64,000 bases of DNA from Halovenus carboxidivorans (lineage in GTDB: Archaea > Halobacteriota > Halobacteria > Halobacteriales > Haloarculaceae), in assembly GCF_009831575.1 (NCBI RefSeq), contig NZ_WUUT01000003.1:370748-434747 (forward strand). Reading direction: 5' to 3'. The notes under the pieces were generated by a model, which saw only the letters and a list, made by a program, of their open reading frames with translations, ran no database searches and was not told the DNA's origin. The translations under genes and the position numbers were made by a program. Shown piece by piece: positions 7,941-61,831 of the stretch (within the stretch, counting starts at the first letter, position 1; each line of letters begins with the position of its first letter).

Positions 7941-10055
7941 ATGGCAGACGCCGGAGGGATCCTCGCGTTCGATACGCTGACCGATCGCCCGGGAATTGAG
8001 ATTATCGACCGGCTCGAACAGCTCCGGTACCAGTTACAGACACCGACAGAGGTCACCCCCGAGCCGGTGCCTTCCGACTCGTTTTTCTTCCCGGTCGGGA
8101 TGGGCGTCAGTATCGAGACCGATGCAGTTACGCTCCCGAATCCGGCGAGTGTTATCGTCCGCGATCCGGATGGGGATATGGTTGCAGAGATTGAGCACCT
8201 CGACAGCCAGCGGCTGCCCGAAGGGTCGTACATTCTCGATCTGAGCACCCAAATCAAGACCTACATGGAGGTGACGGGTCCGGTAGAGATCACTGCGGAG
8301 ATCATGTCGATTCAGTTCGAGTTCACCGAGCAGACGACCGTCAATATCGGGTTCCGATCCCGTCACACCCGGCCGGCAGCGACGATCGAAACGACCGGGA
8401 AGCCGCGTGACCTGATGCGAGCGGTCAGTGCGTTTGGGTCGGCACTCAAATCGACGAGTCCGGAACGATCCTTTCCGACACTCCGTGGGCATCCCCCGCG
8501 ACTCGAACTCGGGCACACGCTGGAGGTTCCTTCGCAACTCAACCCGCCGGAGACCGGGATCGAAATCGCAATTCCGCCTGAACGCCAGTATGTGTACCCG
8601 GTCGTCTCGCTGGCGTACTACTTGGGTGCGCGTGTAGTTCCGGCGGGACAGCCACAGATTCGGACTGACGAGGGGTTCGTCTGGCGTCTCGACCCTACAG
8701 CGTTCGAGTCGCAGGCCGAGCGGATACTGAAACAGGTCTTCCTGTTGGACTGTCTTGTCCGAACCGAAGGATTCTATAACGTCTCACTGCACGAGCGGCA
8801 ATCACTCGAGAGTGAACTAGATCTCGACTGGGAGGCGCTGTACCACCAGTCGATCGGGCGACGGTTAGAGTCGTATCTGGAGGTGCCGTTTGACCCGATC
8901 TCGGAGTTTGTTCCGACCTGGCCTCTCGTCGCCCACGCTGCACCGAGTCCCGAAACCGCGGAGCAGTTACCGTTCGTCGTCGACGACCTCGCCATCGTCC
9001 GGACGACAGACAACCCGACGACGGTGGAGCCGACAATCGGCACTGGTCAAACGACCGAGTCCGCACGCTCGAATGCTCTGCGGCGGTCGAGCGCGGTGCC
9101 GTCGACGTATCGATCACACGACACCGAAGACGCTCCGACCGACCAACCGTACATACAGTTCGAGCCGACCGACTCGCTCGAACAGGGGTGGATCGGGGAT
9201 GGGGTTCCAATCGGAGCCAACAAACTGCTAGTCGAGGCCTTCGAGAACCGACTGGATCGTGAAGCGGGGACCGGTGACATCTCGATCACGATCGTTCTGA
9301 ACGATACCCGGATGGACCAAGAGCGGGACCTCGTCGATGCTGCCTACGGCGACAGATCCGATCTGCCATTCGACGTATCCGTCCACCGGGACCTCTCTGT
9401 CGAGCAACTCCGGACGACTCTCCGGGAGGAGTGTGATTTCCTCCATTACATCGGTCATGCGGAGCAGGATGGGTTCGAGTGTCCCGACGGAAAACTCGAC
9501 GCGGGGACGCTCGACCGAACAGGCGTCGATGCGTTTCTTCTCAACGCCTGCAGCTCCTATCACCAGGGGATCAAACTGATCGAGGCGGGGGCAATCGGCG
9601 GGATCGTGACGCTGGCGGATATCATCAGCAACGAGGCCGTCTCCATCGGTGAACTGATCGCGAAGCTTCTGAACACCGGCTTCCCGCTGGGGGCGGCGCT
9701 TTCGATCGCCAGCGAAGAGAGCATTCTCGGAGGGCAGTACACCGTCGTCGGAGATGGTGGCTTAACGGTGACGCAGCCGTCGAGTCGGACACCGAATCTC
9801 GTCCAAATTCAGTCTGATAATCAGGCTTACGCTATCGATATTTCTCTCTTCCCTGCTGATTCCTCTGGCTTCGGCACAATATATGCACCGTTGATTGAGT
9901 CTCTCGATAGCCTGTATTTTCTTGCCTCTGGGAATACCGGAGAAATTCAGGTATCAAAACAGGAACTATGTGAATTCCTCGATCTGGAGGATGTTCCTGT
10001 TCGAATCGATGGTGAATTTACTTGGAGCTCAACGGTATCTGCCGAGGATTTATAA
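7941..10055 (+). CDS. CHAT-domain (caspase-like) protein
   Basis: A 704-residue protein starting at the ATG; a TTG four codons upstream is less likely. The C-terminal third has the CHAT caspase-like signature: strand-loop HYIGHAEQDG with His506 as the likely catalytic histidine, then AFLLNACSS with Cys537 as the nucleophile. It continues into AGAIGGIVTLADIIS and a helix resembling the end of the caspase fold (about residues 400-640). The N-terminal 400 residues are mixed beta/alpha with no recognised domain and no TPRs or membrane span; residues about 370-405 look like a flexible linker. CHAT proteins are cysteine proteases, some acting in bacterial defence or cell death. The gene is convergent with a 44-residue membrane peptide gene 20 bp away. 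The substrate is unknown. Codon use in the last 70 residues is more AT-rich than in the rest. Confidence 0.85.
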   Translation: MADAGGILAFDTLTDRPGIEIIDRLEQLRYQLQTPTEVTPEPVPSDSFFFPVGMGVSIETDAVTLPNPASVIVRDPDGDMVAEIEHLDSQRLPEGSYILDLSTQIKTYMEVTGPVEITAEIMSIQFEFTEQTTVNIGFRSRHTRPAATIETTGKPRDLMRAVSAFGSALKSTSPERSFPTLRGHPPRLELGHTLEVPSQLNPPETGIEIAIPPERQYVYPVVSLAYYLGARVVPAGQPQIRTDEGFVWRLDPTAFESQAERILKQVFLLDCLVRTEGFYNVSLHERQSLESELDLDWEALYHQSIGRRLESYLEVPFDPISEFVPTWPLVAHAAPSPETAEQLPFVVDDLAIVRTTDNPTTVEPTIGTGQTTESARSNALRRSSAVPSTYRSHDTEDAPTDQPYIQFEPTDSLEQGWIGDGVPIGANKLLVEAFENRLDREAGTGDISITIVLNDTRMDQERDLVDAAYGDRSDLPFDVSVHRDLSVEQLRTTLREECDFLHYIGHAEQDGFECPDGKLDAGTLDRTGVDAFLLNACSSYHQGIKLIEAGAIGGIVTLADIISNEAVSIGELIAKLLNTGFPLGAALSIASEESILGGQYTVVGDGGLTVTQPSSRTPNLVQIQSDNQAYAIDISLFPADSSGFGTIYAPLIESLDSLYFLASGNTGEIQVSKQELCEFLDLEDVPVRIDGEFTWSSTVSAEDL

Positions 10056-10075
10056 TGCGATATGAGGTCGTAAAA

Positions 10076-10210
10076 CTATATACCGCTAATTGATTTCCCG
10101 TTACCTGCAACAGCAGGCCCGACCTGGGCCATCAGCATGGTCATTCCGAACAGTGCAGCCAGCAGTCGTGGGTGTTCCTTGAGGAACTCCGCCGCGGTTG
10201 AGTCTGACAT
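10076..10210 (-). CDS. 44-residue single-span membrane peptide (DUF7503-like)
   Basis: The peptide has a charged N-terminus (MSDSTAAEFLKEHPR), a hydrophobic helix (about residues 16-35, LLAALFGMTMLMAQVGPAVA) and a short polar tail (GNGKSISGI). This layout matches the very short haloarchaeal proteins catalogued, as I recall, as DUF7503. It is convergent with the CHAT gene. An AT-rich upstream stretch (10211-10260) on the same strand supplies a TATA-like element. The helix could be a membrane anchor or a signal peptide with an Ala-x-Ala-like end at AVAG. Function unknown; its neighbour makes a protease-substrate or effector relationship worth testing. Confidence 0.75.
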   Translation of the reverse strand: MSDSTAAEFLKEHPRLLAALFGMTMLMAQVGPAVAGNGKSISGI

Positions 10211-10528
10211 GATACACTGCTGATTTTGCTCGATTGTGTATTAAATTTATCTTATAATTCGATATAGTTTTTAGTTTTATTGAAGCGGTATATTCGCGAT
10301 ATTTATACGTAATCATTCTGACTGCTCGAAGCCCTGACCGAAATTCCCGAAACAACGTCTGTACGGGCAGATTCTCGGCCCCTCCGGAGCCAGCGATTTT
10401 GTACAGGTCTCGTGGCGGGGGAATAATTATAATTTTGGGCCTATATTGTCCCAGTACGTCGCTATGAGCGGGAGTATACCACGTCGTCGCGTCGCGATCC
10501 GGTCTAGTTGTATCACAGGTGGTTACAG
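10211..10528. other. AT-rich intergenic region
   Basis: 318 bp between divergent genes, noticeably richer in A+T than its surroundings, for example around 10235-10310 and 10425-10445. It probably holds the promoter of the 44-residue peptide (minus strand, near 10235-10250). A TATA-like element for the response regulator (ataattataatttt near 10422-10436, plus strand) is also present. No gene is supported. Confidence 0.5.
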
Positions 10529-11449
10529 ATGAACCAGAAGAACGACTCAGCAGCATCGAGTACGCTGTCCCGGTCGACGCTGCGCGGGTGTCGTCGCGTG
10601 ACCCGCGAGCAACCACCACTGCTTCGCAACAGCACGTCAAACCCCTTCGAGGAGAAAAACTTCGACGTCCCGATTCCGGTCTCCGCAACGGAGGAACCGA
10701 CAGACGTACAAATTCTCCACGTTGACGACGACCCGCAGGTCCTCGAATTGACCCGCGAGTTTCTCGAACGAACCGACGACCAGTTCTCCGTGATCGGTGA
10801 GACGTCCGCTGTCGAGGGACTCAACAGACTCCAGGAAGAGGAGGTCGATTGTATCATCAGCGACTACGATATGCCCAACACGGACGGCCTCGAATTTCTC
10901 GCTATCGTCCGCGAGCAGTATCCGGATCTTCCCTTTATTCTCTACACGGCGAAAGGCAGCGAGGAAGTGGCCAGCGAGGCAATCTCCGCAGGCGTGACCG
11001 AGTACATGCAGAAGGAGGCGAGTACCGAGCAGTACGAAATCCTGGCCAACCGAGTTCGGAACGCCGTCGAGCGCTACCGATCCCAACAGCAGTTCTGGAA
11101 CGCGCTCTCGTGGTATCACCGACTCGTTGAGCAGGACATTGCCGGCGTATTCATCCTTCAGGACGGGGAGTTCGTCTACGTCAACGAGCAACTGGCGAAC
11201 ATCCTGGGGTACATGCGTTCGGAACTGCTCGGCGAACCCCCGCACAGTATCGCGAGCACGCCGTCGGACGAGGAGGTTCTCTCGGATCTGATGGATGCCG
11301 TCGACGACCGGAACTACACGTTCAACCGCACGTTCACCGGAGAGCGTGCCGACGGCACCGAAGTCCCGGTCGAGGTCCACGGCGGCTCGATCCACTACGG
11401 CGGAGAACCGGCCTGTGTCGGAATTCTCTGGCGGACGGCTGACTCCTGA
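10529..11449 (+). CDS. response regulator receiver plus PAS protein
   Basis: A 306-residue cytoplasmic protein. A receiver domain spans about residues 58-182, with the acidic pair in HVDDD, phospho-acceptor Asp112 in CIISDYDMP, Thr140 and Lys162. A PAS domain covers about 195-300 (VFILQDGEFVYVNEQLANILGY). There is no kinase, DNA-binding or enzymatic output domain, so it is probably an intermediate in a phosphorelay. Before the receiver is an unusual Arg- and Ser-rich tail of about 57 residues. A GTG at 10598 or a later start would shorten it, so the true N-terminus is uncertain. No partner histidine kinase is nearby. Confidence 0.85.
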   Translation: MNQKNDSAASSTLSRSTLRGCRRVTREQPPLLRNSTSNPFEEKNFDVPIPVSATEEPTDVQILHVDDDPQVLELTREFLERTDDQFSVIGETSAVEGLNRLQEEEVDCIISDYDMPNTDGLEFLAIVREQYPDLPFILYTAKGSEEVASEAISAGVTEYMQKEASTEQYEILANRVRNAVERYRSQQQFWNALSWYHRLVEQDIAGVFILQDGEFVYVNEQLANILGYMRSELLGEPPHSIASTPSDEEVLSDLMDAVDDRNYTFNRTFTGERADGTEVPVEVHGGSIHYGGEPACVGILWRTADS

Positions 11450-11484
11450 GACCGCCCGCGTCGAGACAGCGCCATCCCTCCAGG

Positions 11485-11808
11485 TCACTCGTCGATGGGG
11501 GCAACTCTCTCGACTCGCTCCGTCCCGGGTGCAGTGTCGAGTGCCGATTCGACCGTCTCGGCCGCCGACACAGCTCTCATCTCGACCGTTAGTTCGAGTC
11601 CGACCGCTGTCGCCGCAAGTGCCGGTTCGAGACCGCACACGCCGTCGATACTGACCGTGTTGATGCGGTCCACCGATTCGAGCCGTCTGGTCGCGTCGCT
11701 GGCGAGGTCTGCCCCGCCGTCGCGCGGGACACGAACCGTGACTCGGGCTGTCCATCGCCTCGCAGTCGTGCCCGACATCGCCGTGTCGGGGTGGTTCTGT
11801 GCTGTCAT
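11485..11808 (-). CDS. conserved-looking hypothetical protein
   Basis: About 107 residues from the ATG at 11808; an ATG at 11778 would give 97. It has no membrane span. The central part alternates strands and helices (ARVTVRVPRDGG, then TVGLELTVEMRAV) and the codons favour G/C in third position, as in real haloarchaeal genes. A longer overlapping frame on the plus strand has no recognisable character. Product not recognised. It converges with the response regulator, 35 bp away. Confidence 0.55.
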   Translation of the reverse strand: MTAQNHPDTAMSGTTARRWTARVTVRVPRDGGADLASDATRRLESVDRINTVSIDGVCGLEPALAATAVGLELTVEMRAVSAAETVESALDTAPGTERVERVAPIDE

Positions 11809-12344
11809 CCGCGAGACGCGAGGAGCGAGTCGAACGCTCAGTACTCGGTCCACACCGCTCGCGCCGTTATCGCCGATACTGCTCGGGAACTGCGCTGTCT
11901 CGCCTCTGGACTCGTTCAGTCGTCACCGTGCTCTGGAAGACTCTGTGCTGAGTTATTTCCATCATGAGGGCCAGCGCCGGAGACGAACCGGATGCACGCG
12001 TCGCTGGCCGGGATCCTCTCTGAAGGCACACGCAGTACTCCCGAGAAACTGCGCGATCCGATCAGAACACGCCCGCATTCACCACCCCGGACGGGGAGTC
12101 CGTCCGGGTGACGGTTATTCGGGCATCAGGCCGGCCGATAGCCGGCATCGAGACCGTTTGCCCCGATGACCAGACATCCCGGGAGAAGTGCGAACCCACC
12201 GGTACTCGCCTCGGCCGGTGAGTCTGGGGACAGGATGGTGGTCATCGGTTCTACCTCAGATCTAACTCGAACTGACGATGGGATTGATATTAAATGTACC
12301 CGGAGTGTGGGTGACATACCCACGGCTGGACGGTATCCGACGGG
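11809..12344. other. gene-poor stretch before tRNA-Cys
   Basis: About 535 bp without a supportable gene. It contains a strong hairpin at 12083-12110 (CACCCCGGACGG, GGAG, then TCCGTCCGGGTG) and a smaller one at 12131-12145. No tRNA fragment or integrase remnant was seen. It may be decayed sequence. Confidence 0.4.
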
Positions 12345-49186: not shown

Positions 49187-50422
49187 TCACGACCGCTCGC
49201 TGGCTCGCCGGCCGGCCTCGTAGCCGGTCGCGAGTCCGACCCCACCTGCGGCGTGATCGGCGACCACGTTCGGCCCGGCGAGAACACGTCCGGCCGCGTA
49301 GAGGTTCTCCGCGACCGCTGACTCGTCGGACGTGACCGGTCGCAGCCGATCATCCGTCGGCACGCCGGCCCGCACGGCCGGGTGGTCACCGAGGAACCGT
49401 TCGTCGACCAGTCCCCGGTCAGGCAGCGTTACGGGACAGTCGAAGACCGGCTCCCGGAGGTCCTCCGGTCCGCCGACGAGACCGCCCGACTCCGCACCGC
49501 CCGTCGCGAGCACGTAACTGTCCGCCTCGTAGCTCTCTCGTCCGGTCGACACTCGTTCGATCCGCCCCTCGGTCCGTTCGACCTCTGTGATCCGGCCCGC
49601 TGAATCGAGTTCGCCACCCCGGGATTCGAGAGTTTCGGCAAGCAGCGACTCCAGCCGACGGCCCGGGAGGCTCGGCGGACCGAGCGACACCTCGAACACG
49701 GAGACGCGTAGTTTCTCGGCAATCGTCTCCGTAATCGCGGCCGTCTCGGACTCGCCGAGTGCTGCCGGGAGTCCGATTCGTGGTTCGACATCGACCACCG
49801 GTTCGAGCGCGTCGACGAGTCGCTCGCGGGCGGGTTGTCCGTCGCTAATCTCGTTTTCGTCGAGCAGTCGTGCCATCTCCGCCGGTGAGTCTGCCGACAA
49901 GGGTGTATCGATCATCTGTCCGGTGACATCGAGCGGCGTCCGTTCGTCGAGGCGTTCAGCCGCCAGTTCGGCGTCGAAGTCCGGGAACCCCTCGAAGCCG
50001 ACCAGCCGCATCGACGGCGGCCCGCTCACCACGCCGTTGCTCACGCTCCGCGGATACCGCAGCGCCGGTGCCACCTCGCCGACTGCGGTCGGAAACAGCG
50101 CGTTCGTCTCCGTCCCGGAGCCGACGTATCGCTCGCCGGCCACGTCGTCGAACAGCGCGAGCGCATCTCGAACCGTGTCGAGGCCCAGCCGGCTGTACGG
50201 ATGTGACTCCGGGAGCCGGTCGACCGCGGAGAGCGGATTCGCAACCGGCTCCGTCCCCCCTGGCTCGAACCCGAGCACGTCGAGCAGTCCCGTCTCCGTC
50301 GCGAACCGATCAGCCGGGAGTCGGAGGAGCCGAACCGACGCGCCGGGGTCGGCATCGAGGGCACTCAGCGCCGCGCTGTACCCCTCGATGCCGCCGCCGA
50401 CGACGAGTACGTCCTCGCTCAT
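49187..50422 (-). CDS. glpB: anaerobic glycerol-3-phosphate dehydrogenase subunit B
   Basis: 411 residues. A Rossmann motif (VLVVGGGIEGYSAAL) opens the protein and SYVLATGG-type FAD contacts (here SYVLATGGAESGG) are in the C-terminal half. It matches the GlpB subunit of the GlpABC complex, the membrane-linked oxidation of glycerol-3-phosphate. It overlaps the end of glpA by 4 nt (ATGA). The iron-sulfur subunit GlpC, which normally follows, is absent: the next gene is mcmA2. Confidence 0.9.
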   Translation of the reverse strand: MSEDVLVVGGGIEGYSAALSALDADPGASVRLLRLPADRFATETGLLDVLGFEPGGTEPVANPLSAVDRLPESHPYSRLGLDTVRDALALFDDVAGERYVGSGTETNALFPTAVGEVAPALRYPRSVSNGVVSGPPSMRLVGFEGFPDFDAELAAERLDERTPLDVTGQMIDTPLSADSPAEMARLLDENEISDGQPARERLVDALEPVVDVEPRIGLPAALGESETAAITETIAEKLRVSVFEVSLGPPSLPGRRLESLLAETLESRGGELDSAGRITEVERTEGRIERVSTGRESYEADSYVLATGGAESGGLVGGPEDLREPVFDCPVTLPDRGLVDERFLGDHPAVRAGVPTDDRLRPVTSDESAVAENLYAAGRVLAGPNVVADHAAGGVGLATGYEAGRRASERS

Positions 50423-52212
50423 TGGCCCACCGCCTCCGAACACTTCGCCCGCCCGTCTGTGCCCCGCGGCACGCCGTCGATGACCGGCAGGACCGAGTCC
50501 TCGCCGCGGTATCGCTGGTCGGCGCGGCTTCGCTCGGGTATCGTGAACCCGCTTTCGTCGAAGGAGTCGGTGTCGACCTCTTCCTGTCGCTCGTCGTCGC
50601 GGCCGAGCAGACGCGCGTGAAACTCGTAATCGTCGAGCGCCGCGGCGAGTTGGTCGTCAGCCAGCGTCTCGCGCCGCCCCCGCCAGCGCCGCTGCAGCAG
50701 CGTTTCGAGCGACTCGTCGACGGTCTCGTGGTCGTGATCGGGGTATAGCTCGGCCGCGATCCGGTGTCCGCAGCGACCGCCCTGACACTCGCCCATCGTC
50801 GCGCCGGTCTGCGTCCGGACGTTCGCGAGTTCGGGCTCGGGCTCGCTCGCGTCGATGGCCGACCGGACCGCTTCGCGGCCTACCGACCGCGCCTCACAGA
50901 GGACCGGACCGGAGTCGCCCGACCGAATCGAAGTGTCGGGCAGGCTCAGATCGGCGGTGAGGCAGGACCGACCGATCCCGAACTCCCGGCAGACCCGGTT
51001 GACTGCCTGTTCTGCGACGAAACGGTGTGTCGTGACGCTCCCGCCGATGACGCTCAACAGCCCCCACCGGTCGTCGTATTTCTCGTGGTCGACCAGCGTC
51101 GCGTCGTGGCCGTACGGGGAGGCGCTCGAACTGGCGTGTTGGGTCCAGACGCCCGTATACGACCGCAACACTGCCGCCTCGCTGGCCGCCGGCAGGACCG
51201 CCTCCACCGCGGCGAGTGCCTCCTCCAGTTCGGTTGGCTCCGGAATCGGTCCGACGACCGTGTTCCCCTGATACGGGGCGGCCGTGATCGGATAGCCGTC
51301 GTCGCTCCGCCGAGTGACCGCCGAGTCGGTCAGTTCGCCGCTCAACACGACCATCCGACCGCGGCTCCGGGACAGCGGGAGTTTGATCCCCGCGAGACCG
51401 GCGATCTGGTCGGCCCACGCACCGGCCGCGTTGACGACGTAGTCGGCTTCGATCTCCTCGCGCTCGCCCGTATCCGGCGTGTCGTCCTCGGTCGCGCCGG
51501 GAAACGACCGCTGGACCGTTCCCGGCATCCCCGGCGTATCCTCCTCATCGTCGTCCTCGGCGTCGATTGGCTCCTCCTCTTCCTCGTCGACTTCTGGCTC
51601 CCGTGTCTCCTCTGGTACGTCCTCGCTGGGCGATGTCGGTGCCCGCACTCCACCGGGACTCTGGTCGAACTCCACCTCCGCGCCGACGATGTCGGTGCCG
51701 TCGGTGAGCAACTCGACGACCGACGCCCCGGTCTTGATCTCGGCGCCGTAGTTCTCCGCGCTCGTCGCGTTCGCACGCGTCAGCGCGAAGGGATCGACGA
51801 CCCCGTCGGGGACGCGAACGCCCCGGTCGATCCCGTCGGCGACGCCGATTTCGTCGAGGTCGCTACGGCCGAGCGCCGAGGCGGGGATCGAACGCTGTTC
51901 GCAGGCGTCGACGAACGCGTCGAACTCTCCCTTTTCTGCCGGGAGCACGACCCCCTCGGTGTCTTCGATACAGTGGCCGGCAATCTCCCGGAGAGTCCTG
52001 TTCTCCGTGAGACAGCGCATCGCGGCGGTCGGGTTCTCCTCGACGAACCGAGCGCCGCTGTAGAGTAGCCCGTGGATGCTCCCGGTCGTCCCCGCCGCGA
52101 GCGTTCCCTGTTCGACCAGCGTTACCTCCAGTCCGCGGAGCGCACAGTCACGGGCGATGGCCGTTCCGAGTACTCCGCCGCCGATGACTAGTACGTGTGG
52201 CGTGTACGCCAT
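50419..52212 (-). CDS. glpA: anaerobic glycerol-3-phosphate dehydrogenase subunit A
   Basis: 597 residues, the catalytic FAD subunit. A Rossmann motif (VLVIGGGVLGTAIARDCALRG) and DAO fold are followed by the C-terminal BFD-type [2Fe-2S] domain (CEARSVG ... GATMGECQGGRCGHRI). Oxidises sn-glycerol-3-phosphate to dihydroxyacetone phosphate. An Asp/Glu-rich insert of roughly 70 residues (about 186-256) interrupts the FAD domain and is not part of the family core. No glycerol kinase is seen here. Confidence 0.93.
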   Translation of the reverse strand: MAYTPHVLVIGGGVLGTAIARDCALRGLEVTLVEQGTLAAGTTGSIHGLLYSGARFVEENPTAAMRCLTENRTLREIAGHCIEDTEGVVLPAEKGEFDAFVDACEQRSIPASALGRSDLDEIGVADGIDRGVRVPDGVVDPFALTRANATSAENYGAEIKTGASVVELLTDGTDIVGAEVEFDQSPGGVRAPTSPSEDVPEETREPEVDEEEEEPIDAEDDDEEDTPGMPGTVQRSFPGATEDDTPDTGEREEIEADYVVNAAGAWADQIAGLAGIKLPLSRSRGRMVVLSGELTDSAVTRRSDDGYPITAAPYQGNTVVGPIPEPTELEEALAAVEAVLPAASEAAVLRSYTGVWTQHASSSASPYGHDATLVDHEKYDDRWGLLSVIGGSVTTHRFVAEQAVNRVCREFGIGRSCLTADLSLPDTSIRSGDSGPVLCEARSVGREAVRSAIDASEPEPELANVRTQTGATMGECQGGRCGHRIAAELYPDHDHETVDESLETLLQRRWRGRRETLADDQLAAALDDYEFHARLLGRDDERQEEVDTDSFDESGFTIPERSRADQRYRGEDSVLPVIDGVPRGTDGRAKCSEAVGQ

Positions 52213-52261: not shown

Positions 52262-54007
52262 CTAACCGTCCGTCTCCAGCGGGTCCGCGTAGACGACTCC
52301 GCGCTCGCCGTCGAGTGTCACTTCCCGACCTTCCCGCACGTCGTCGGGCACGCGTGCGTGGCTGATCATCGGAACCCCGAGTTCGCGCGCCACGACCGCC
52401 GCGTAGCCGGTCATCCCCTCGTGGGCGTCGATGATCCCCGCGATTTTCGAGAGGTCGCCCCGGAACTCCTGGTCGAACTCCTCGGGGACGGCGATGATCG
52501 CACCGTCTGGAACTTCGGCCAGGTCACCGTCGTCGACTCGGGACAGCGGTCCCGTCGCGAAGCCCGCGATGACGGACCGACCCGAGAGCAGTCGCTCGGA
52601 CGCGACGTGCACCTTGAGCATATCCGCGGTGTCGTAGCCGCCGTGGTCGGTCATCATTCCCGAGAGCACGACCACGGTGTCGCCGCTCTCGGCGCTACCG
52701 GCGTCGAGCGCCGTCTGCACGGCGTTGCGGATCACCGCGTCGGAACTGTCCTCCTCGTAGGTGGCGTGTCGGGGGATGATCCCCCAGGTGAGCGTGAGTT
52801 GTCGACGAACGCGGTCGTCCGGCGTCGAGGCGACGATTGGGATGTTCGGCCGGTACTTCGCCGCCTTCCGTGCCGTGTAGCCGGATTCGCTGGCCGCGAC
52901 GACCGCGCTCGCACCCACGTCCCGGGCGAGAAACCGGGCCGACCGAGCCAGCGCGTCGGTTCGGGTGTCCCCCGCCGGCGGCACCCGCTGTTCGAGCGTC
53001 TCGGCGTACTCTTCACTTTCCTCGACGTCACCGATGATTCGGGCCATCGTCTCGACCACCTCGGCCGGGTGATCCCCGATAGCCGTCTCCCCCGAGAGCA
53101 TCACGGCGTCGGTCCCGTCCAGCACGGCGTTTGCTACGTCGGAGGCCTCTGCTCGCGTCGGACGGTGTTCGCTGATCATCGAGTCGAGCATCTCCGTCGC
53201 CGTGATGACCGGCACGCCGGCGCCCCGGCACTTTCTGATGATGCGCTTCTGGATGATCGGCACGTCCTCCAGCGGGCACTCGACACCCAGGTCGCCGCGG
53301 GCGACCATGATCCCGTCCGCCGCGTCGATGATCTCGTCGATGTTCTCGACGGCGTCGGCGCGTTCGATCTTGGCGACGATGGGGATGTCGGCGTCGCGCT
53401 CGTCGAGTTCGGAACCGATCTCGTAGACATCTGCGGCGGACCGGACGAAGCTCCCGGCGACGAAGTCGACGTTCGTCTCCGCCGCGATATCGAGTTCCCG
53501 GCGGTCCTGTTCGGTGACCGCCGGCAGGCCGAGATCCACCCCCGGAACGTTGACTCCGGTTCGGGAGCCGAGTTCCCCACCGGATTCCAGTCGCGCGCGT
53601 ACGCCCGAACCGCCCTCGGTCACCGTGGCCGTGATCCGGCCGTCGTCCAGCAGGATCTTGTCCCCGGCTTCGACGGCGTCGACACCCGCAGAGAGCCCGA
53701 TCTGCTCTGTCGTCGTCTCGGCACCCTCGACGAACCGCACGACAGCCCCCGCAGAGAGCGTTATCGGTTCGTTCATCTCCGCAGTCCGGATCTCCGGCCC
53801 CGGCAGATCGAGCAACGTCCCGATCGGTGTCGCCGTCGTCTCGTCCACCGATCTGACCCGCCGGATCAACTCCCGCCTGTCCGCCGGGGTGCCGTGGCTG
53901 GCGTTGAACCGCGCGACCGACATCCCGGCCTCGACCAGTGACGTGATGGACTCCCGATCGTCTGACGCCGGCCCGAGCGTACAGACGATCTTGGCCCGGC
54001 GAGTCAT
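52262..54007 (-). CDS. pyk: pyruvate kinase with C-terminal PEP-utilizer domain
   Basis: 581 residues. The TIM-barrel core carries RAKIVCTLGPASDDRES, RFNASHGTP, MVARGDLGVE (Mg/K site) and VITATEMLDSM-like GVPVITATEMLDSM. An additional C-terminal domain of about 100 residues (from about 485, SVIAGFATGP ... HEGMTGYAAVVARELGVP) matches the PEP-utilising mobile domain found in some bacterial and haloarchaeal enzymes. Final step of glycolysis. Next to glpAB, upstream and in the same direction, 49 bp before glpA. Confidence 0.95.
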   Translation of the reverse strand: MTRRAKIVCTLGPASDDRESITSLVEAGMSVARFNASHGTPADRRELIRRVRSVDETTATPIGTLLDLPGPEIRTAEMNEPITLSAGAVVRFVEGAETTTEQIGLSAGVDAVEAGDKILLDDGRITATVTEGGSGVRARLESGGELGSRTGVNVPGVDLGLPAVTEQDRRELDIAAETNVDFVAGSFVRSAADVYEIGSELDERDADIPIVAKIERADAVENIDEIIDAADGIMVARGDLGVECPLEDVPIIQKRIIRKCRGAGVPVITATEMLDSMISEHRPTRAEASDVANAVLDGTDAVMLSGETAIGDHPAEVVETMARIIGDVEESEEYAETLEQRVPPAGDTRTDALARSARFLARDVGASAVVAASESGYTARKAAKYRPNIPIVASTPDDRVRRQLTLTWGIIPRHATYEEDSSDAVIRNAVQTALDAGSAESGDTVVVLSGMMTDHGGYDTADMLKVHVASERLLSGRSVIAGFATGPLSRVDDGDLAEVPDGAIIAVPEEFDQEFRGDLSKIAGIIDAHEGMTGYAAVVARELGVPMISHARVPDDVREGREVTLDGERGVVYADPLETDG

Positions 54008-54236
54008 GGGTTCCCCCGCGTGTGCGGTGTCGTTCTCATACTCCTACACTCACGGGTCGAGGTAATCAAAGTTGTCTGCGTGAAAAAATGATGACCGTTT
54101 CTCCCAGCCCACGACCACACCCCGGAGTTCCGGCCGCAAGTTCCCGGCTGTCGGCGGGATAGTGATCAATAATTAATGTATAGTTGCCGAGCAGTTTGGT
54201 GTGGATTTATACTGTGTGCTGGAATATGGGGGTGTA

Positions 54237-56093
54237 ATGTCGGAAGAACAGGAGGATAGCGGAATCGGGCACCGGTTGCGCAGCAGGTATATGTACAAGA
54301 TCGCTGCTGCGGTGATCGTCGTCGCGCTCGTCCTTACGGGGTTAGGGTGGTGGACGTTTACCGGCGTGCAGGCGAGTGTCTCCGACGACGCGGAATCGTC
54401 GATGCTGAGGGCGTCGGAGCGTGAGGCCGCTGGTATTCAACAGTTCGCCGGCGAGCGAAGCAACATCACACAGCGGATCGCAAACGAGGAAGGGATCGGC
54501 AGTATGTCCGATCAACAGATCAACGCCACGCTCGCGGACGAACTCCGCCGGGCACCGAGCGACGTGGTCGCACTCCACTACTACAACATCGAACAGCAGA
54601 CCGTCGAGATCAGCACCAACCCCCTCGCGGAGGGGGTCGAAGTGAGCGCCGAGCAGTTCCCGTGGGTCGAGGCCGCTCGCCAGGCCACCGCTGGCGAGGT
54701 GCGTTCGCTCGAACCTAACAGCGGGACGGTCGCGTTCAAGGACGGCAACGAGAAACAACTCGGCTTCGTCGCTCCGGTCGAGAACCGTGAATCCCACGCC
54801 ATCGTCCTCGTCGTCGACCTCGAGGCCCGGAGTTCGCTTCTCACCTCGCCGGTCGAGGGCGGCAAGATCCACGTCGTCTCCTACGCCGCGGACGGTCAGA
54901 TCGTCCTCGCGGAGGACCTCACGACCATCCTCGATCAGCATCCGCTCGTCGGGGAACTGGACTATCTCACGACCGGCGACGTGCAGGCCCAGACCGACCA
55001 GGTGACCGCACAGACCGATCTCTTCGAGGACGAGAACCTGGTGGTCGCGTCGGCTGAGGTGCCGGGCGACAAGCGGTGGCTCGTGACGACGACCGCCGAA
55101 CGCTCGACGGTTTTCGACACGGTCAGCGAGGTGTCTCGGAGCCTGCTTATCCTCATCGTCGTCTCGCTTCTGGGGCTGGTCGTCCTCGGGGCGGCGATCA
55201 TCCGCGACATCAACCGGTCGCTGAACCAGATCACCGTCTACGCCGAAGAGATCGAAGACGGCAATCTCGGCGTCGACATCGAACAGTCCCGCGTCGACGA
55301 GTTCGGCCAACTCTCGGTGCTGTTCTCCCGGATTCGGGACAGTCTCGAAGGGCAGATCAGAGAGGCTGAACAGGCCCAAAAAGAGGCGGAAGTCGCCCGA
55401 GCAGAGGCCGAGGAACTGGCCCGACACCTCCAGGAGAAAGCCGAGGAGTACTCCGAGGTGATGCAGCAGGTCGCGGCCGGCGATATGACCCAGCGGATGC
55501 AGCAGGACGGCGAGGAGGAGTCGATGGATCAGATCGCCGCGCAGTTCAACGAGATGATCGAGGAACTGGAGAAGACGACCGGCCAACTCAAAAGCTACGT
55601 CGACGAGGTCGAAGCGGCCGGTGCCGAGGTCGAACAGAGTTCCCGGACGGTCCGGGAGGCGAGCGAGCAGGTCGCGGAGTCGATCCAGAAGATCTCCGAC
55701 GACGCTTACGACCAGAAGGACCGCCTCGACGAACTCCGCCGGTCGATGGAGGAGACCGTCGAGCGGATCGAGGACATCGCCGCGGAACACGACAACGTCT
55801 CCGTCGACGACGCGCTCGCGCAGATCCGCGAGGTGGCCGAGGAACTCGACGAGATCGCCGAACTCAGCCAGGAGACGATGGCCGAGTCACAGGAGGTCGC
55901 CGGCGCGGCCGAGGAGCAGGCGGCCGAACTGAACACGGTCTCCGATCGGGCGAACGACTTACAGCGGTACGCCCAACCGCTCCGTGACATCCTCGAACGG
56001 TTCGAGACCGAGGAAGAACACGAGTTCGTCTTCTCCGTGGGTCCGACTGGCGGCGCCGCCAGCCCGGAAGAAGGTCCCGGCGACGACGCCTGA
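54237..56093 (+). CDS. transducer-like membrane protein lacking the signalling hairpin
   Basis: 618 residues. Span 1 (about 20-43) and span 2 (about 302-324) enclose an external sensor domain, cache-like by length. Two HAMP-like units (about 325-375 and 410-455) and coiled coil follow. The cytoplasmic helices look like chemotaxis transducers (SSRTVREASEQVAESIQKI ... SQEVAGAAEEQAAELNTVS), but the conserved tip (normally QTNLLALNA-type) that binds CheA/CheW is missing. It ends with an acidic tail after LRDILERFE. It therefore probably does not signal through CheA. The transcript begins close to the ATG (TATA at 54204-54213). Confidence 0.85.
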   Translation: MSEEQEDSGIGHRLRSRYMYKIAAAVIVVALVLTGLGWWTFTGVQASVSDDAESSMLRASEREAAGIQQFAGERSNITQRIANEEGIGSMSDQQINATLADELRRAPSDVVALHYYNIEQQTVEISTNPLAEGVEVSAEQFPWVEAARQATAGEVRSLEPNSGTVAFKDGNEKQLGFVAPVENRESHAIVLVVDLEARSSLLTSPVEGGKIHVVSYAADGQIVLAEDLTTILDQHPLVGELDYLTTGDVQAQTDQVTAQTDLFEDENLVVASAEVPGDKRWLVTTTAERSTVFDTVSEVSRSLLILIVVSLLGLVVLGAAIIRDINRSLNQITVYAEEIEDGNLGVDIEQSRVDEFGQLSVLFSRIRDSLEGQIREAEQAQKEAEVARAEAEELARHLQEKAEEYSEVMQQVAAGDMTQRMQQDGEEESMDQIAAQFNEMIEELEKTTGQLKSYVDEVEAAGAEVEQSSRTVREASEQVAESIQKISDDAYDQKDRLDELRRSMEETVERIEDIAAEHDNVSVDDALAQIREVAEELDEIAELSQETMAESQEVAGAAEEQAAELNTVSDRANDLQRYAQPLRDILERFETEEEHEFVFSVGPTGGAASPEEGPGDDA

Positions 56094-56192
56094 TCCTCGG
56101 GGGATCTTCCGGTACGACCGGCACCCCGGTACTTAAATTACCCCCGATATCAGTGGTAGGAACTGGTTGGGATGTACCTAATATGTACAGAT

Positions 56193-56594
56193 ATGAACCA
56201 CCCATCGATGACTGGTCCGCACGGCGGTCCGGGCGGCGAACGGTCGCAACTGACCGAGGAAGCCGAGATCGAGTCCCTGCTCGGCACGCTCGAAGATTCC
56301 GACTGCCGTGCGATCATCGAGGCGACGACGAGCGAGGCGCTGTCGGCCAGCGAACTCTCCGACCGCTGTGATCTCCCGCTGTCGACGACCTACCGGAAAC
56401 TCGACCAACTCACCGAAGTCGGCGTCCTCGACGAACGGGTTCGGCTCTCCCGTTCCGGCCAGCACACGAGCGAGTACACGCTCCAGATCGAGTCGATACA
56501 GCTCTCCGTCGACCCCGAATCGGGCGTCGTCCTGCAGATCTCCGACGACCAGCCCCTCCAGTCCGACGGTTCGCTGGTGGCCGGCGCCGACTGA
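56193..56594 (+). CDS. winged-helix DNA-binding protein
   Basis: About 133 residues from the ATG at 56193; ATGs at 56172 and 56208 are alternatives. A winged helix (about residues 25-75) reads LLGTLEDSDCRAIIEATTSEALSA-type entry, with recognition helix LPLSTTYRKLDQLTEVGVL. It is ArsR/HTH_20-like. The C-terminal end is a short beta segment without a recognised ligand domain. It lies between the transducer-like gene and the Brp-type gene in the same direction, so it may regulate carotenoid/retinal genes; this is inference. Confidence 0.8.
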   Translation: MNHPSMTGPHGGPGGERSQLTEEAEIESLLGTLEDSDCRAIIEATTSEALSASELSDRCDLPLSTTYRKLDQLTEVGVLDERVRLSRSGQHTSEYTLQIESIQLSVDPESGVVLQISDDQPLQSDGSLVAGAD

Positions 56595-56715
56595 ACGACC
56601 TCCGTTTTCCCGCCGACCCTCCCGTCCGTAACGCTTCGCTTTCGCCTCTCGTTTCACTTCAATCCCCTCCGTGTTGTGGGTGCTTCCTTAGGACCGTTCC
56701 AGCCAACATACAGGT

Positions 56716-57747
56716 ATGAGTACGACCGTCTCCGTCTCCCGCGAGCGGATGCGCTGGCAGCCGGAAACCCTCGCAATCACCGCCGCCCGGCTCTCACTGC
56801 TGGTTCTCACGGTCGGGTTCGCCGCCGCGGCGGTCCTCGGCTTCTCGGTTCCGATGCGAACGCAGATGATCGTCTATCTCGTGGGAATGGTCGCGCTCAA
56901 CCTCCCCCACGGGGGCTACGAGCACTTCACCAACCTCCGCCACCGGGGACTCCCGTTCGGCGCGCGGTACGTAGGTATCTACCTCCTCGCCGTCGCTGGC
57001 TTCGTCGCACTGTTTTTTCTCGCGCCCGTCTCGGCTCTCGGGATCGCGTTTGCGACGGCCGTCGCGAAGGGCGGTCACGGCGACCTCCACGTCATGGACG
57101 CTGTCGTCGGCAGCGACCACCTCAAGTACCGTCCCCAGCGCGCGCTCGCGGCGCTCGTCAGGGGCGGAGCGGTGATGATCCTCCCGCTGTTCCTGTGGCG
57201 AGATGTCTACATCGGGTTCTCGCAGTTGATGGTCAGCATGTTCGATCCCGGCGCGATGGGAGCGGTCGCGACCCGCATCGAGACCGGCGCACCCGTCCTG
57301 CTCGGCGGGTACGCCGTCGCGCTGGTCGCCCATCTGCTCGGGGGCTTCCTGACCGGGGGGTTCTCCCGCGACTGGCTCCGGGATGTCGGTGAGACGGGTC
57401 TGCTCGTCGCCTACTTCACCGTCGTCCCGGTCGTCATCTCGATCGGGCTGTACTTCCCGCTGTGGTACTCGATGCGCCAGTCCGGGCGGTCGGCGGTCGC
57501 ACACCGCGCCGAACCCGACGACGGCCTCTCGACGGGCGCGATCTGGGCCGTCTTCGTCGCCGGCGCGTTCATGACCGGGACGGTGGCGGCCGCGCTGTAT
57601 CTCGTCGCCCCGAACCCGCTCGGGGTCGGCAACCTCCTCGGCGGACTGGTCGCGTTCTACACGATTTTCATCTGCGTGGTCGCGATGCCTCACGTCGTCG
57701 TCGGACAGTGGCTGGACCGGGACCGCGGGATCTGGTACGTCCCCTGA
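56716..57747 (+). CDS. Brp/Blh-family carotenoid 15,15'-dioxygenase-like membrane protein
   Basis: 343 residues with about eight to nine membrane spans. The family blocks are NLPHGGYEHF (about 56-65; known members have PHG-x-x-D/H), AKGGHGDLHVMD, YFPLWYSMRQSGR and AMPHVVVGQWLD. The His residues bind the catalytic iron in related enzymes, which cleave beta-carotene to retinal. The first block differs from the usual (tyrosine-glutamate before His). Homology is good enough to call the family, but retinal production is inferred. Its CrtI-type neighbour fits a carotenoid route. Confidence 0.87.
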   Translation: MSTTVSVSRERMRWQPETLAITAARLSLLVLTVGFAAAAVLGFSVPMRTQMIVYLVGMVALNLPHGGYEHFTNLRHRGLPFGARYVGIYLLAVAGFVALFFLAPVSALGIAFATAVAKGGHGDLHVMDAVVGSDHLKYRPQRALAALVRGGAVMILPLFLWRDVYIGFSQLMVSMFDPGAMGAVATRIETGAPVLLGGYAVALVAHLLGGFLTGGFSRDWLRDVGETGLLVAYFTVVPVVISIGLYFPLWYSMRQSGRSAVAHRAEPDDGLSTGAIWAVFVAGAFMTGTVAAALYLVAPNPLGVGNLLGGLVAFYTIFICVVAMPHVVVGQWLDRDRGIWYVP

Positions 57748-57872
57748 ACGGCTCGGATCGACATTTTCCTCCGTCTACGGCCGACAACTGATCCGGAGCA
57801 CCGGGTTCGGCCCTTCAATCCCCCCGCTATCCGGGTCTGCGGTTCTCACCCATACAGTCCTACAGCTAGACG

Positions 57873-59405
57873 ATGAGCGACCCAGCACTCTCCGGAGAAT
57901 CGGTCGGTATCGTCGGGGCGGGAATCGGCGGACTGGCGGCCGCGGCGCACCTCGCCGACGCGGGTGCAGACGTGACGATCTACGAAAAACAGCCACAGGT
58001 CGGCGGCGTCGCCGGGGTCATCGAGGAAGACGGCTTCCGGTTCGACACCGGACCGTCGTGGTATCTGATGCCCGGGCTGTTCGAGCGCTTTTTCGAGCAG
58101 TTCGGATACCAGCCCGAGGAGCTCTACGACCTCGTTCGGCTCGACCCCCATTACCGGATCTTCTGGACCGACGGCGACAGCGTCGATATCCCGGCCAACA
58201 CCGACCGAGCCGTCGAACTGTTCGAGTCCTACGAGGACGGCGCCGGCGAGGCCTTCGAGGCGTATCTCGAGGAATCTGCCGAGACCTACGAGATCGGGAT
58301 GGAGCGGTTCGTGGTCCCGAACCGGAGTCGATTCCGCGACTATCTCTCGGCAGATGTCGCCAAATCCGCCCGGGGACTCTCCCTGCTCGGGACGATGGAC
58401 GACCACGTCGCGGAGTACTTCGACAATCCGAAACTCCGCCAGATCGTCCAGTACACGCTGGTCTTCCTCGGCGGCGCTCCGCACAATACCCCCGCGCTGT
58501 ACAACCTGATGAGCCACGTCGATTTCGAACTCGGCGTCTACTACCCACAGGGCGGGATGTACGCCGTCGTCGAGGCGATGGAGTCCGTCTGTGAGGAACT
58601 GGGCGTCGAGATCAACACGTCGACGCGAGTGATGGGGCTCGAACCCGTCGAGAGCGGGGTCGCAGTCGCCCACGACGGGGACACCCGGGCTCACGACCGC
58701 GTGGTCTGTAACGCACCGATCGCCCACGCCGAGCGCAAACTCCTGCCGGATCACGCCGTCGACCGCGACCCGGAGTACTGGGAGCACAGAACGTACGCGC
58801 CGTCGGCGTACATGTGTTATCTCGGCGTCGACGGCCCGCTGGAGAGCCTCGAACACCACACGCTCGTCCTCCCGACCGACTGGGACGACCACTTCCACTC
58901 GATCTTCGAGGCCCCCGGCTGGCCGGACGACCCCGCCTACTACGTCAACGTCCCCTCTCGTACGGATCCGACGGCCGCCCCCGAGGGCAAGGAGACGGTG
59001 GTCGTACTCGTCCCGATTGCGCCCGACCTCGACGACGACGAGGCCGCCCGCGAACGCATGCGGGCGGACGTACTGGACTCACTCGCCGAGCACGCCGGCG
59101 TGGACCTCCGCGGGCGCATCGAGTTCGAGCGCGAGATGTGCGTCTCCGACTACCGCGAGCAGTTCAACAAACCCCAGGGGACCGCGCTGGGGCTGGCTCA
59201 CACGCTGTTTCAGACGGGACCGATGCGACCCTCCCACCGAGCGCCCGGCGTCGACCGCCTCTACTACGTCGGCGGCGACGCGAACCCCGGAATCGGCGTC
59301 CCGATGTGCTTGCTCAGCGGCGAGCACGTGACGGAGACGATCATCGAAGATGCGACCGGATCGGGGTTCGTCGACTCCGTTCTGCCCGAACAGCTCCGAC
59401 CCTGA
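57873..59405 (+). CDS. CrtI-type phytoene/carotenoid desaturase
   Basis: 510 residues. An N-terminal FAD motif IVGAGIGGLAAAAHLADAGA (about residues 13-32), then EKQPQVGGVAG and a C-terminal VDRLYYVGGDANPGIGVPM block are diagnostic of the CrtI/CrtD desaturase group. Acts at the membrane to introduce double bonds in C40 carotenoids. It could be phytoene desaturase or a 3,4-desaturase paralogue of the bacterioruberin route. It follows the Brp-type gene after 125 bp. Its stop is adjacent to the stop of the convergent 65-residue gene. Confidence 0.92.
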   Translation: MSDPALSGESVGIVGAGIGGLAAAAHLADAGADVTIYEKQPQVGGVAGVIEEDGFRFDTGPSWYLMPGLFERFFEQFGYQPEELYDLVRLDPHYRIFWTDGDSVDIPANTDRAVELFESYEDGAGEAFEAYLEESAETYEIGMERFVVPNRSRFRDYLSADVAKSARGLSLLGTMDDHVAEYFDNPKLRQIVQYTLVFLGGAPHNTPALYNLMSHVDFELGVYYPQGGMYAVVEAMESVCEELGVEINTSTRVMGLEPVESGVAVAHDGDTRAHDRVVCNAPIAHAERKLLPDHAVDRDPEYWEHRTYAPSAYMCYLGVDGPLESLEHHTLVLPTDWDDHFHSIFEAPGWPDDPAYYVNVPSRTDPTAAPEGKETVVVLVPIAPDLDDDEAARERMRADVLDSLAEHAGVDLRGRIEFEREMCVSDYREQFNKPQGTALGLAHTLFQTGPMRPSHRAPGVDRLYYVGGDANPGIGVPMCLLSGEHVTETIIEDATGSGFVDSVLPEQLRP

Positions 59406-59604: not shown

Positions 59605-60042
59605 TCAGTCCTCGGATTCGAGTTCCCGCTTGAGGTTGTCGAGTGTCTTTCGCAACTGGCGTCTGTTGTATCGCTTGACGACGGGTTCGGCCGCCGCCGA
59701 GAGCACGCGGCCGGGGATGTCGTACTCCGCGCTGTAGGTCACTCTCGTCCTGCCGTCGAGGTCCTCGAACCGGAGGTCGATCTCCCCGGTGAGTCGGCCC
59801 CGCATCTCGAAGCGCATCCGCTCGTTTTCCTCGTGGATCTGTTCGACCAGTTCCCCGTCGATGCCGACACCGGCCATCTCGTAGGTGTGTTCGAGTCGCT
59901 TGCCGCCGTTGTCGAGCGGTTCGACGTTCCGGATATCGGTGATCCCGGGCGTGATCGTGGCGTGATTGTGCGGGTCGTCGAGATACGCGAAGACCTCGCT
60001 CACGGGCCGGTCGATCTCGATGGACTCGCTGACTGCTGTCAT
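59605..60042 (-). CDS. SRPBCC-fold (polyketide cyclase/START-like) protein
   Basis: 145 residues from the ATG giving MTAVSESIEIDRPVSEVFAYL, the typical first strand and helix of this fold. It has beta-rich middle TGEIDLRFEDLDGRTRVTYSAE and a long C-terminal helix. These proteins bind hydrophobic ligands; the ligand is unknown. The family is common near carotenoid and lipid genes. It is transcribed with the 65-residue membrane protein. Confidence 0.88.
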   Translation of the reverse strand: MTAVSESIEIDRPVSEVFAYLDDPHNHATITPGITDIRNVEPLDNGGKRLEHTYEMAGVGIDGELVEQIHEENERMRFEMRGRLTGEIDLRFEDLDGRTRVTYSAEYDIPGRVLSAAAEPVVKRYNRRQLRKTLDNLKRELESED

Positions 60043-60076
60043 CACCCCCGTTTCGGGGCGGACGGACAAAAAGCGG

Positions 60077-61831
60077 TCACTCCATCCACTTCGCGTCGAC
60101 GAGTGTCCGCTGGACGGCCTGCTCACCGACCGACTCGGCGAGTGTCTCGTAGCCGGCCCGCTCCCCGCGGTCGCTGGCGTCGGCCACCAGCCGTGAGACG
60201 ATGAACTCAGGTGTCGACCGCCCGACGGTCTCGAACCGCGGCTGGTAGTCGACCTCGAGGTCGAGGTCCGGAGTCAGACCTTCCGCGAAGATTCCGTCCG
60301 TCCGGGCCTCCGCGGGAAGCGGTTCGAGGTCGTCGGCCAGGTGGGTGACGAACACGCCGAGTGCTTCCTTCTCGACGGTCAGCGTGACGAGTCCGTGCAG
60401 CAGGTCGGCGGCGCTTCCCGGTTCGGTGATCGCCTCGAACTCGTCGACCAGCATGAGCGTCCGCCCCGAGTCGGTCAACGGCGGGACCACCGAGCGAAGC
60501 GTCGACTCCAGTACACCGGCGTTGAAACTCGCGTGGCGACGGTGGAAGACGATCCGCTCGACGACGTGGATCTCCGCGCTGTCGGCGGGTACGGGCAACC
60601 CCATCTGCGCCAACAACTGCACCTGACAGAGCGTCTCCAGCAGCGTCGTCTTCCCGCCGCTGTTCGCACCCGTCAGGACCGTCACCCGGTCTCCGCTCGG
60701 CGGGGCGGTCGCACCGGGAACTGACAGCGAGTGTTCACCGACGGCGTAGGTGATCGGTTGGACTGTCTCGCCGGCGTCTTCGAGGAAGATGTTCCGGGCG
60801 TCGACGACGCCCGCCACCGGGCCGTCCCGGAACGTCGGCTCGGTTAGCTCGAACTCGGCCGCGAACCGCGCCAACGAGACCGACAGCGCGATCTCCTCGA
60901 CGGCAGATACGGCCCGGTCGATATCGTCCCGGGCCCGTTCGAGCATCCCGTTCAGCTCCCTTCGAACCTCCTGTTCGCGCTCGTCGGCACCTCCCCTGAG
61001 GTCGTCCGCGAGGCTTCTGAGCGTCTCGCCGACGAACGCCCGCGCGTCGGCGGCCTCCTGGGGCATCGCCTCCCGGACCTTCGTCACGTCGAGCCCGCTC
61101 TCCTGTGCGATTTCCCGCGCGAGCGACTCCTGCAACTGGTCGGTTCCGCGGGCTCCCGACTGTACCTCTTCGAGCACCGTCTCCGGAGCCGCGCGCAGGT
61201 CCTCGACCGCACCGAGTTGGGTTCGCAGGCGGTCGAGCCGCTCGTCGGCGCCCTCGGTCACGCCGCCGTCGCCGTCCAGTCCGGTAAGTGCCGTGACCGC
61301 ATCCTCCAGCGCGTCCGCCGAGAGGTCCCCCAGCGGCTCGAACACGCCGGAGTCGAGGCCCGCGTCCCGCAGCGACTGTGCGGCTTCGACGGCGCCGCGC
61401 TCGCTGTTTTCGGCGCCGTCGTACCGCTCGAAGGCCCCGACGACGGTGGATCGCTCGTCTTCGGAGAGTGACTGCCAGCTCTCCCGTGCCTGCTGTACGT
61501 CGTCAAGCCGGTCGGCCATCGCCGCCCGTTCGGACAGCGGGGTCAGGATCCGGATCCGATCGGCCGCGCCTTCGGTGACGGCGTACTCGCTCATGATGTC
61601 GAGTAGCTGCTTGTAGACCTGCCGGGCGTCGCGGGTCGCCAGCACGTCGAGCGCCGCGCCGCCGTGGGCGTGGCGGAGAATGCGCGTCGCCCGACCGCGA
61701 GGTAACCCGGCGTCGGTCAGCGCGCGCACGTCGCCGGCTTCGATCGCCTCAACTGCCGCTTCGGCCCCCAGACTCTCGACGAGCAGGTCACGGGTCTTCG
61801 GCCCGATTCCCCAGTACTCCTCCAGTCGCAT
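60077..61831 (-). CDS. MutS-family ATPase (MutS-like, no mismatch-binding domain)
   Basis: 584 residues. A helix-hairpin-helix-type start (YWGIGPKTRDLLVESLGAEA) is followed by a long helical core and a C-terminal MutS ATPase with Walker A GANSGGKTT (about 386-394), Walker B TLMLVDEFEAI and His in THLADDL. Mismatch-recognition domain I and the MutS2 Smr nuclease domain are both absent, so it is not canonical mismatch repair. Haloarchaea carry several such MutS-like proteins; a role in recombination or repair is likely but not specified. Upstream of the SRPBCC gene. Confidence 0.9.
   Translation of the reverse strand: MRLEEYWGIGPKTRDLLVESLGAEAAVEAIEAGDVRALTDAGLPRGRATRILRHAHGGAALDVLATRDARQVYKQLLDIMSEYAVTEGAADRIRILTPLSERAAMADRLDDVQQARESWQSLSEDERSTVVGAFERYDGAENSERGAVEAAQSLRDAGLDSGVFEPLGDLSADALEDAVTALTGLDGDGGVTEGADERLDRLRTQLGAVEDLRAAPETVLEEVQSGARGTDQLQESLAREIAQESGLDVTKVREAMPQEAADARAFVGETLRSLADDLRGGADEREQEVRRELNGMLERARDDIDRAVSAVEEIALSVSLARFAAEFELTEPTFRDGPVAGVVDARNIFLEDAGETVQPITYAVGEHSLSVPGATAPPSGDRVTVLTGANSGGKTTLLETLCQVQLLAQMGLPVPADSAEIHVVERIVFHRRHASFNAGVLESTLRSVVPPLTDSGRTLMLVDEFEAITEPGSAADLLHGLVTLTVEKEALGVFVTHLADDLEPLPAEARTDGIFAEGLTPDLDLEVDYQPRFETVGRSTPEFIVSRLVADASDRGERAGYETLAESVGEQAVQRTLVDAKWME

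Follow-up and report, generated by a model that had tools for sequence, protein, structure and literature searches.

A chemoreceptor-derived protein family of the Haloarculaceae that lacks the signaling tip and often lies near sugar genes

The window, a 64,000-nucleotide stretch of contig NZ_WUUT01000003.1 from Halovenus carboxidivorans, contains a forward-strand gene for a 618-residue, transducer-like protein (G000:C3:424984-426837 in genome coordinates). The gene is divergent from a pyruvate kinase gene, beyond which lie genes for two subunits of glycerol-3-phosphate dehydrogenase. In the following, "tipped" transducers are those with the conserved hairpin tip that contacts CheA/CheW, and "tipless" ones are those in which it is absent. 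Features are listed in window positions, with residues of the 618-residue protein.

49187..50443, minus strand: glycerol-3-phosphate dehydrogenase subunit GlpB (NCBIfam, above cut-off)
50419..52212, minus strand: GlpA-like glycerol-3-phosphate dehydrogenase subunit (NCBIfam, best model below its own cut-off)
52262..54007, minus strand: pyruvate kinase, divergent from the tipless gene and the commonest neighbor cluster of tipless genes (Pfam; tipless loci)
54237..56093, plus strand: tipless transducer-like gene, 618 amino acids, start ATG 54237 (open reading frame; HAMP without MCPsignal; family alignment)
54363..55133, plus strand: extracytoplasmic dCache-like sensor, residues ~43 to 299, flanked by two membrane helices (weak AlphaFold2 model; fold matches)
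55197..55349, plus strand: HAMP 1, residues 321 to 371 (Pfam)
55452..55607, plus strand: HAMP 2, residues ~406 to 457 (second Pfam HAMP stretch, limits placed from alignments)
55608..55787, plus strand: descending methylation helix, residues ~458 to 517, with ISDDA at 486 to 490 (alignment, motif positions, helix in the weak model)
55788..55805, plus strand: short turn, residues ~518 to 523, replacing the outer hairpin and tip (alignment with tipped Htrs; weak model)
55806..56006, plus strand: ascending methylation helix, residues ~524 to 590, with AAEEQ at 557 to 561 (positions 55905 to 55919; AAEEQ conservation, helix in the weak model)
56019..56033, plus strand: C-terminal tail motif HEFVF, residues 595 to 599 (tail counts across 66 tipless proteins)

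A TATA-like TTTATA, read by eye, lies at about positions 54206 to 54211, 25 bases ahead of ATG 54237, which fits a leaderless transcript and favors this start over GTG 54201. As the preliminary description had proposed, the membrane, sensor, HAMP, and helical parts resemble those of a transducer. The Pfam HAMP match scored 44.8 bits over two stretches (cut-off, 25), and long hydrophobic helices flank the sensor on both sides. There was no Pfam match to a Cache domain in the protein; residues ~43 to 299 of the structural model matched the dCache domains of chemoreceptors and kinases, with Z scores of 14 to 16 and rmsd values mostly of 3 to 5 (the two top rows of the fold searches, integrative whole-receptor models with an rmsd near 100, were left out). 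The full-length AlphaFold2 model was weak (mean pLDDT, 57; nine sequences) and was used solely for helix order and the dCache match. Because amino-acid dCaches were included among the matches of the sensor model, a sugar ligand remains putative.

Chemoreceptors are considered to be most conserved at the hairpin tip, and the known route from a chemoreceptor to CheA requires this tip. MCPsignal had no Pfam match in the 618-residue protein at an E value of ≤1, and in the alignment with tipped transducers a short loop joins both helices where those proteins have the outer hairpin and tip, which bears out the earlier suggestion that the tip is absent and the helices are joined directly. The preliminary description had also raised the alternative of a tip in a longer or alternative reading frame. 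Searching all six frames of the genome with PF00015 gave 18 matches that passed the cut-off and 4 that fell short of it, none of them at the tipless gene. Thus, no tip is concealed there in another frame or longer reading, and that alternative was ruled out.

The spacing of two motif marks indicates how much of the hairpin is missing. Among the tipped Htr rows listed (11 of 40), the distances to the hairpin turn are 119 and 122 residues where both marks were found and 122 to 127 residues where only the second-arm mark was found, whereas the two marks are 71 to 78 residues apart in all 47 tipless proteins measured. By these spacings, about 12 heptads are gone from each arm. The tipless hairpin is about a third of the tipped one; the outer two-thirds, including the tip that contacts the kinase, are absent. 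The tip is truly absent from the window protein, so that direct output to CheA/CheW via the known contact appears very unlikely. Without this tip it falls outside the chemoreceptors as strictly defined, yet its descent from chemoreceptors is plain.

A profile of the output module, designated A1, comprised 17 sequences (the window sequence among them) and 216 positions, with a mean column identity of 72% and 63 invariant positions. The window protein, itself a row of the profile, scored 353 bits over positions 1 to 213. The preliminary description had proposed alignment with haloarchaeal Htr proteins and a search for tipless relatives, and such relatives exist: among the matches listed for 392 genomes of the order, full-length tipless matches (best E value below 1e-60, at least 219 bits) were present in 53 genomes, and all of them were within the Haloarculaceae, the taxonomic family of the window genome. 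The best match listed from outside the Haloarculaceae scored 143 bits, compared to at least 219 bits for the tipless matches, and most of the weaker matches listed span little beyond the first half of the profile. The same score gap was seen in a phylum-wide sample of 392 genomes that overlaps the first. In both samples the best 3 to 7 candidates per genome were scored, so that copy numbers are minimum values. Within the Haloarculaceae, 69 of 146 genomes, belonging to 10 of 22 genera, had the tipless module.

Residues 396 to 618 of the window protein were 69 to 74% identical (blastp) to four Halovenus tipless proteins. The first set of relatives had 37 non-tipped rows, of which 34 were full-length (these include the window protein, and one place is represented twice). 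All 34 of them have the C-terminal motif H[ED]F[VY]F, which none of the 12 tipped rows shows; the other three non-tipped rows are fragments at locus ends, without the motif. Tipless modules of only 272 residues occur in two genomes (L149:8748-9566, minus strand; L150:9480-10298, plus strand); they have no sensor, membrane helix, or HAMP 1, and the AAEEQ and tail motifs are both lost. A search of plasmid records returned 21 records, none spanning 80% of the output module; the 15 plasmid matches listed span 55 to 67% of it, and 14 of these carry chemotaxis-protein annotations. Open-license papers yielded no report of a family of tipless transducers, and the available parts of PMC9680633, PMC3579733, PMC12802281, and PMC11519228 contain nothing on tipless proteins.

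Across 66 tipless proteins, an aromatic C-terminal tail (e.g., EHEFVF) was found in 58, as H[EQ]F[VY][FY] in 56 and [RK][KE]FYF in 2. The eight members with neither form all adjoin sugar ABC genes, and since the tail is absent from these ABC-linked members it cannot be the sole docking site. Across 57 genomes the DNA pattern for EHEFVF had 24 hits, of which 22 fall at tipless genes and 2 elsewhere (in genomes G280 and G137), which suggests that the tail is nearly private to the tipless family. AAEEQ is retained in 62 of the 66 proteins; its last position does not fit the methylation consensus.

Gene neighborhoods were examined with a simple gene caller in 60 genome stretches, 7 named loci, and the window, and representatives of neighbor clusters were identified with NCBIfam and Pfam. 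Five loci (L113, L129, L138, L149, and L150) contributed no tipless gene because the gene caller or the clustering missed it; L110, L112, and L142 contributed two each; and L024 was excluded as the same place as L096. For the tipped controls, 43 loci were taken, and L165, L170, L185, and L198 were excluded because they had no called gene with the tip motif; L176 to L180 were also excluded from the controls. Of the resulting 39 controls, 23 came from seven other tipless-bearing genomes and 16 from the window genome, whereas the 66 tipless genes came from more genomes.

Recurrent neighbors of tipless genes encode pyruvate kinase, a ROK-family sugar kinase, 2-keto-3-deoxygluconate (KDG) kinase, KDPG aldolase, xylose isomerase, parts of sugar ABC transporters, solute-binding proteins, and glycerol kinase (the last cluster also holds other FGGY kinases). 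At least one of ten sugar or glycerol reference groups lay within five genes of 49 of the 66 tipless genes versus 1 of the 39 tipped genes, a ratio that overstates independence because the groups were picked after the tipless neighborhoods had been seen and many loci are related. Such a neighbor was absent for 17 of the 66. The settings nevertheless differ in kind, and at least five can be distinguished: pyruvate kinase with KDG kinase and ROK kinase; xylose isomerase with an FGGY kinase; a CUT1-type sugar ABC transporter; KDPG aldolase; and a solute-binding-protein gene alone. A binding-protein gene on the same strand lay within two genes of 26 of the 66 tipless and 5 of the 39 tipped genes. 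At eight loci (L132, L136, L139 to L141, and L143 to L145), CUT1-type sugar ABC genes closely follow the tipless gene on its own strand. At seven of these eight loci an IclR-type regulator cluster is found no more than five genes away (its domains were checked in L132 only), and an RdfA-like gene is also near the tipless gene of L132. Among the eight Halovenus genomes with a tipless hit, pyruvate kinase adjoins it only in the window genome; the one other case in Halovenus is a contig end of G736. There the pyruvate kinase is 85% identical, and the gene in the same place and direction opens with a tipless-type sensor before the contig ends.

On its other side, the tipless gene is followed by a block (56172-59405 and 59605-61831) comprising an HTH gene, genes for Brp and a CrtI-type desaturase, and, as named from sequence, SRPBCC and MutS-like genes. 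The preliminary description had noted these retinal and carotenoid neighbors and suggested a search for tipless relatives beside Brp or rhodopsin genes. The adjacency stands in the window but does not generalize: retinal and carotenoid genes were found beside a tipless gene in this genome only. None of the seven other Halovenus genomes with a tipless hit, mostly fragmented drafts, had a Brp match within 10 kb of it, and the recurring neighbors elsewhere are sugar genes instead. In genome G265 (L203) the genes of this block likewise stand together, with no tipless gene beside them. The window genome has five opsin matches, none on the contig of the tipless gene. Two opsin genes directly adjoin tipped transducer genes (G000:C4:136768-138143 and 157654-158993), and these tipped transducers are likely to be the true phototransducers of the genome. 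The retinal and carotenoid neighborhood thus looks accidental, and a link to Brp, carotenoid genes, or opsins is not supported by the Halovenus relatives, the G265 block, or the opsin positions.

The two ends of the window protein have different affinities. Residues 9 to 376 share 45% identity with a tipped transducer encoded in the same genome, compared to ∼28 to 29% identity between the window protein and tipless proteins over the first 390 residues, and sliding identity places the switch from tipped-type to tipless-type sequence at residues ∼350 to 390. The sensor tree places the window protein among six tipped transducers (SH-aLRT, 98) and has more mixed pairs of tipped and tipless proteins elsewhere. 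Holding all tipless proteins together was rejected for the sensor tree (p-AU, 2.5e-55) and was compatible with the output-module tree (p-AU, 0.696), where the held tree was 9 log units better than the free one. The starred branches of the free output-module tree force two changes for the tipped label, not one; this tree has long branches and only 151 columns. A single origin of the tipless output module is therefore not rejected rather than shown. By sequence comparison, the window protein is a tipped-type sensor on a tipless output module, and on this evidence one output module appears to have kept its shape while sensors were swapped between tipped and tipless proteins. Taken with G736, the glpA-pyruvate kinase locus suggests that the sensor was replaced in the lineage of the window genome. 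At L102, tipless and tipped genes with closely related sensors stand in tandem (8033-9862 and 10013-12334, plus strand; genes 7 and 8).

The preliminary description had raised two possibilities, signaling to a different partner and regulation of other transducers. We rank first, as a reading whose chances we consider evenly balanced, a nutrient sensor that derives from chemoreceptors, has lost its direct input to CheA, and signals to a putative other partner. A metabolic output is placed first because of the gene neighborhoods and the private tail; the sugar and glycerol genes near tipless rather than tipped genes, and the conservation of the module while sensors change, both support the nutrient sensor. 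A ligand or a ligand-loaded binding protein would change the HAMPs and the short bundle, and the chemotaxis adaptation enzymes may tune that bundle at the kept methylation helix. A putative cytoplasmic partner would receive the output by recognizing the short bundle, together with the EHEF[VY]F tail in most members, and carbon uptake or catabolism could thereby be matched to supply. Counting against this reading are the 17 tipless genes that have no sugar or glycerol neighbor, the loss of the tail beside sugar ABC genes, the confinement of the pyruvate kinase neighbor within Halovenus to the window genome and G736, and the two changes forced in the free output-module tree. Against simple transcriptional control of xylose genes, the transcripts for xylose isomerase and xylulokinase in Halorhabdus utahensis were present in both glucose- and pentose-grown cells and were called constitutive in the available part of that study (PMC8551123).

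The window genome has CheA and CheR, and CheA was matched in 66 of the 69 genomes with a tipless module, the other three being drafts 71 to 89% complete. This co-occurrence could arise from a need for the adaptation enzymes or from an action of the protein on chemotaxis itself, or it may simply reflect shared descent of the genomes. It counts against the nutrient sensor in that it is also predicted if the protein modulates chemotaxis, by pairing with tipped transducers of like sensor or by competing for CheR, CheB, and CheD, and thereby dampens or skews the response to those nutrients whose genes lie nearby. The retained methylation helices with AAEEQ, the exchange of sensors with tipped transducers, and the tandem pair at L102 would also fit such a modulator. 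However, 32 of the 98 CheA-positive genomes of the Haloarculaceae have no tipless hit, co-occurrence with CheA at the level of genera is weak (chance, 0.068), the recurring neighbors identified are metabolic, and the private tail and stand-alone sensorless modules suggest an output of its own. We regard modulation of chemotaxis as possible, if somewhat doubtful. It seems unlikely that the protein serves to connect a binding protein or an ABC transporter with a regulator at the membrane and acts on transport activity rather than on expression or motility. Its position upstream of the CUT1-type sugar ABC genes at eight loci and the frequent same-strand binding-protein genes would accord with such a role, but 40 of the 66 tipless genes, that of the window included, have no binding-protein gene so close, and tipped controls pair with such genes too, as ordinary receptors do.

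Two further explanations are already contradicted, and we give each very little credence. The missing tip might be that of a decaying transducer on its way out, but the frame is open, the output module is highly conserved with many invariant positions, nearly half of the genera of the Haloarculaceae carry it, and the new tail is conserved; a truncated or decaying gene was rejected because of this conservation. A phototransducer, or a regulator of the adjoining retinal and carotenoid genes, would account for the neighborhood in the window, but that adjacency was seen in this genome only, the block is found apart from tipless genes, the sensor is dCache-like, and the opsin genes lie elsewhere, two of them beside tipped transducers.

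The tipless proteins resemble haloarchaeal Htr/MCP proteins (PF00015) in membrane topology, dCache-like sensor, double HAMP, and methylation helices with AAEEQ, and differ from them in lacking the signaling tip and outer hairpin, in the private tail, and in the sugar-gene neighborhoods. Unlike genes for transducers of sensory rhodopsins (HtrI/HtrII type), the tipless gene of the window has no opsin gene beside it. Huta_2444 and Huta_2445 of Halorhabdus utahensis were described as "putative methyl-accepting chemotaxis proteins" encoded between xylose isomerase and xylulokinase, with no mention of a missing tip in the available part of the account (PMC8551123). This gene order is that of the tipless pairs of L110 and L112 (xylose isomerase, two tipless genes, FGGY kinase), from which Huta_2444 and Huta_2445 are probably members of the tipless family. 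The nearest functional parallel found is Tls of Escherichia coli B2 strains, a cut-down chemoreceptor that, according to the available part of its description, takes no part in chemotactic signaling and sequesters the transcription activator FlhDC (PMC12623472). Tls keeps part of the cytoplasmic signaling domain without the sensor part, whereas the tipless family is the reverse, and archaeal.

More broadly, and only tentatively, the Haloarculaceae may possess modular, adapting metabolic sensors built on one shared tipless module, with adaptation by CheR and CheB borrowed from chemotaxis and a new docking tail that leads to a putative effector of carbon uptake or catabolism. Tipless proteins that have been named chemotaxis receptors are probably misread. 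A conserved tipless family near sugar genes would show that signaling through HAMP domains and methylation helices can serve an output other than CheA, and the family offers a natural test of the methylation bundle alone.
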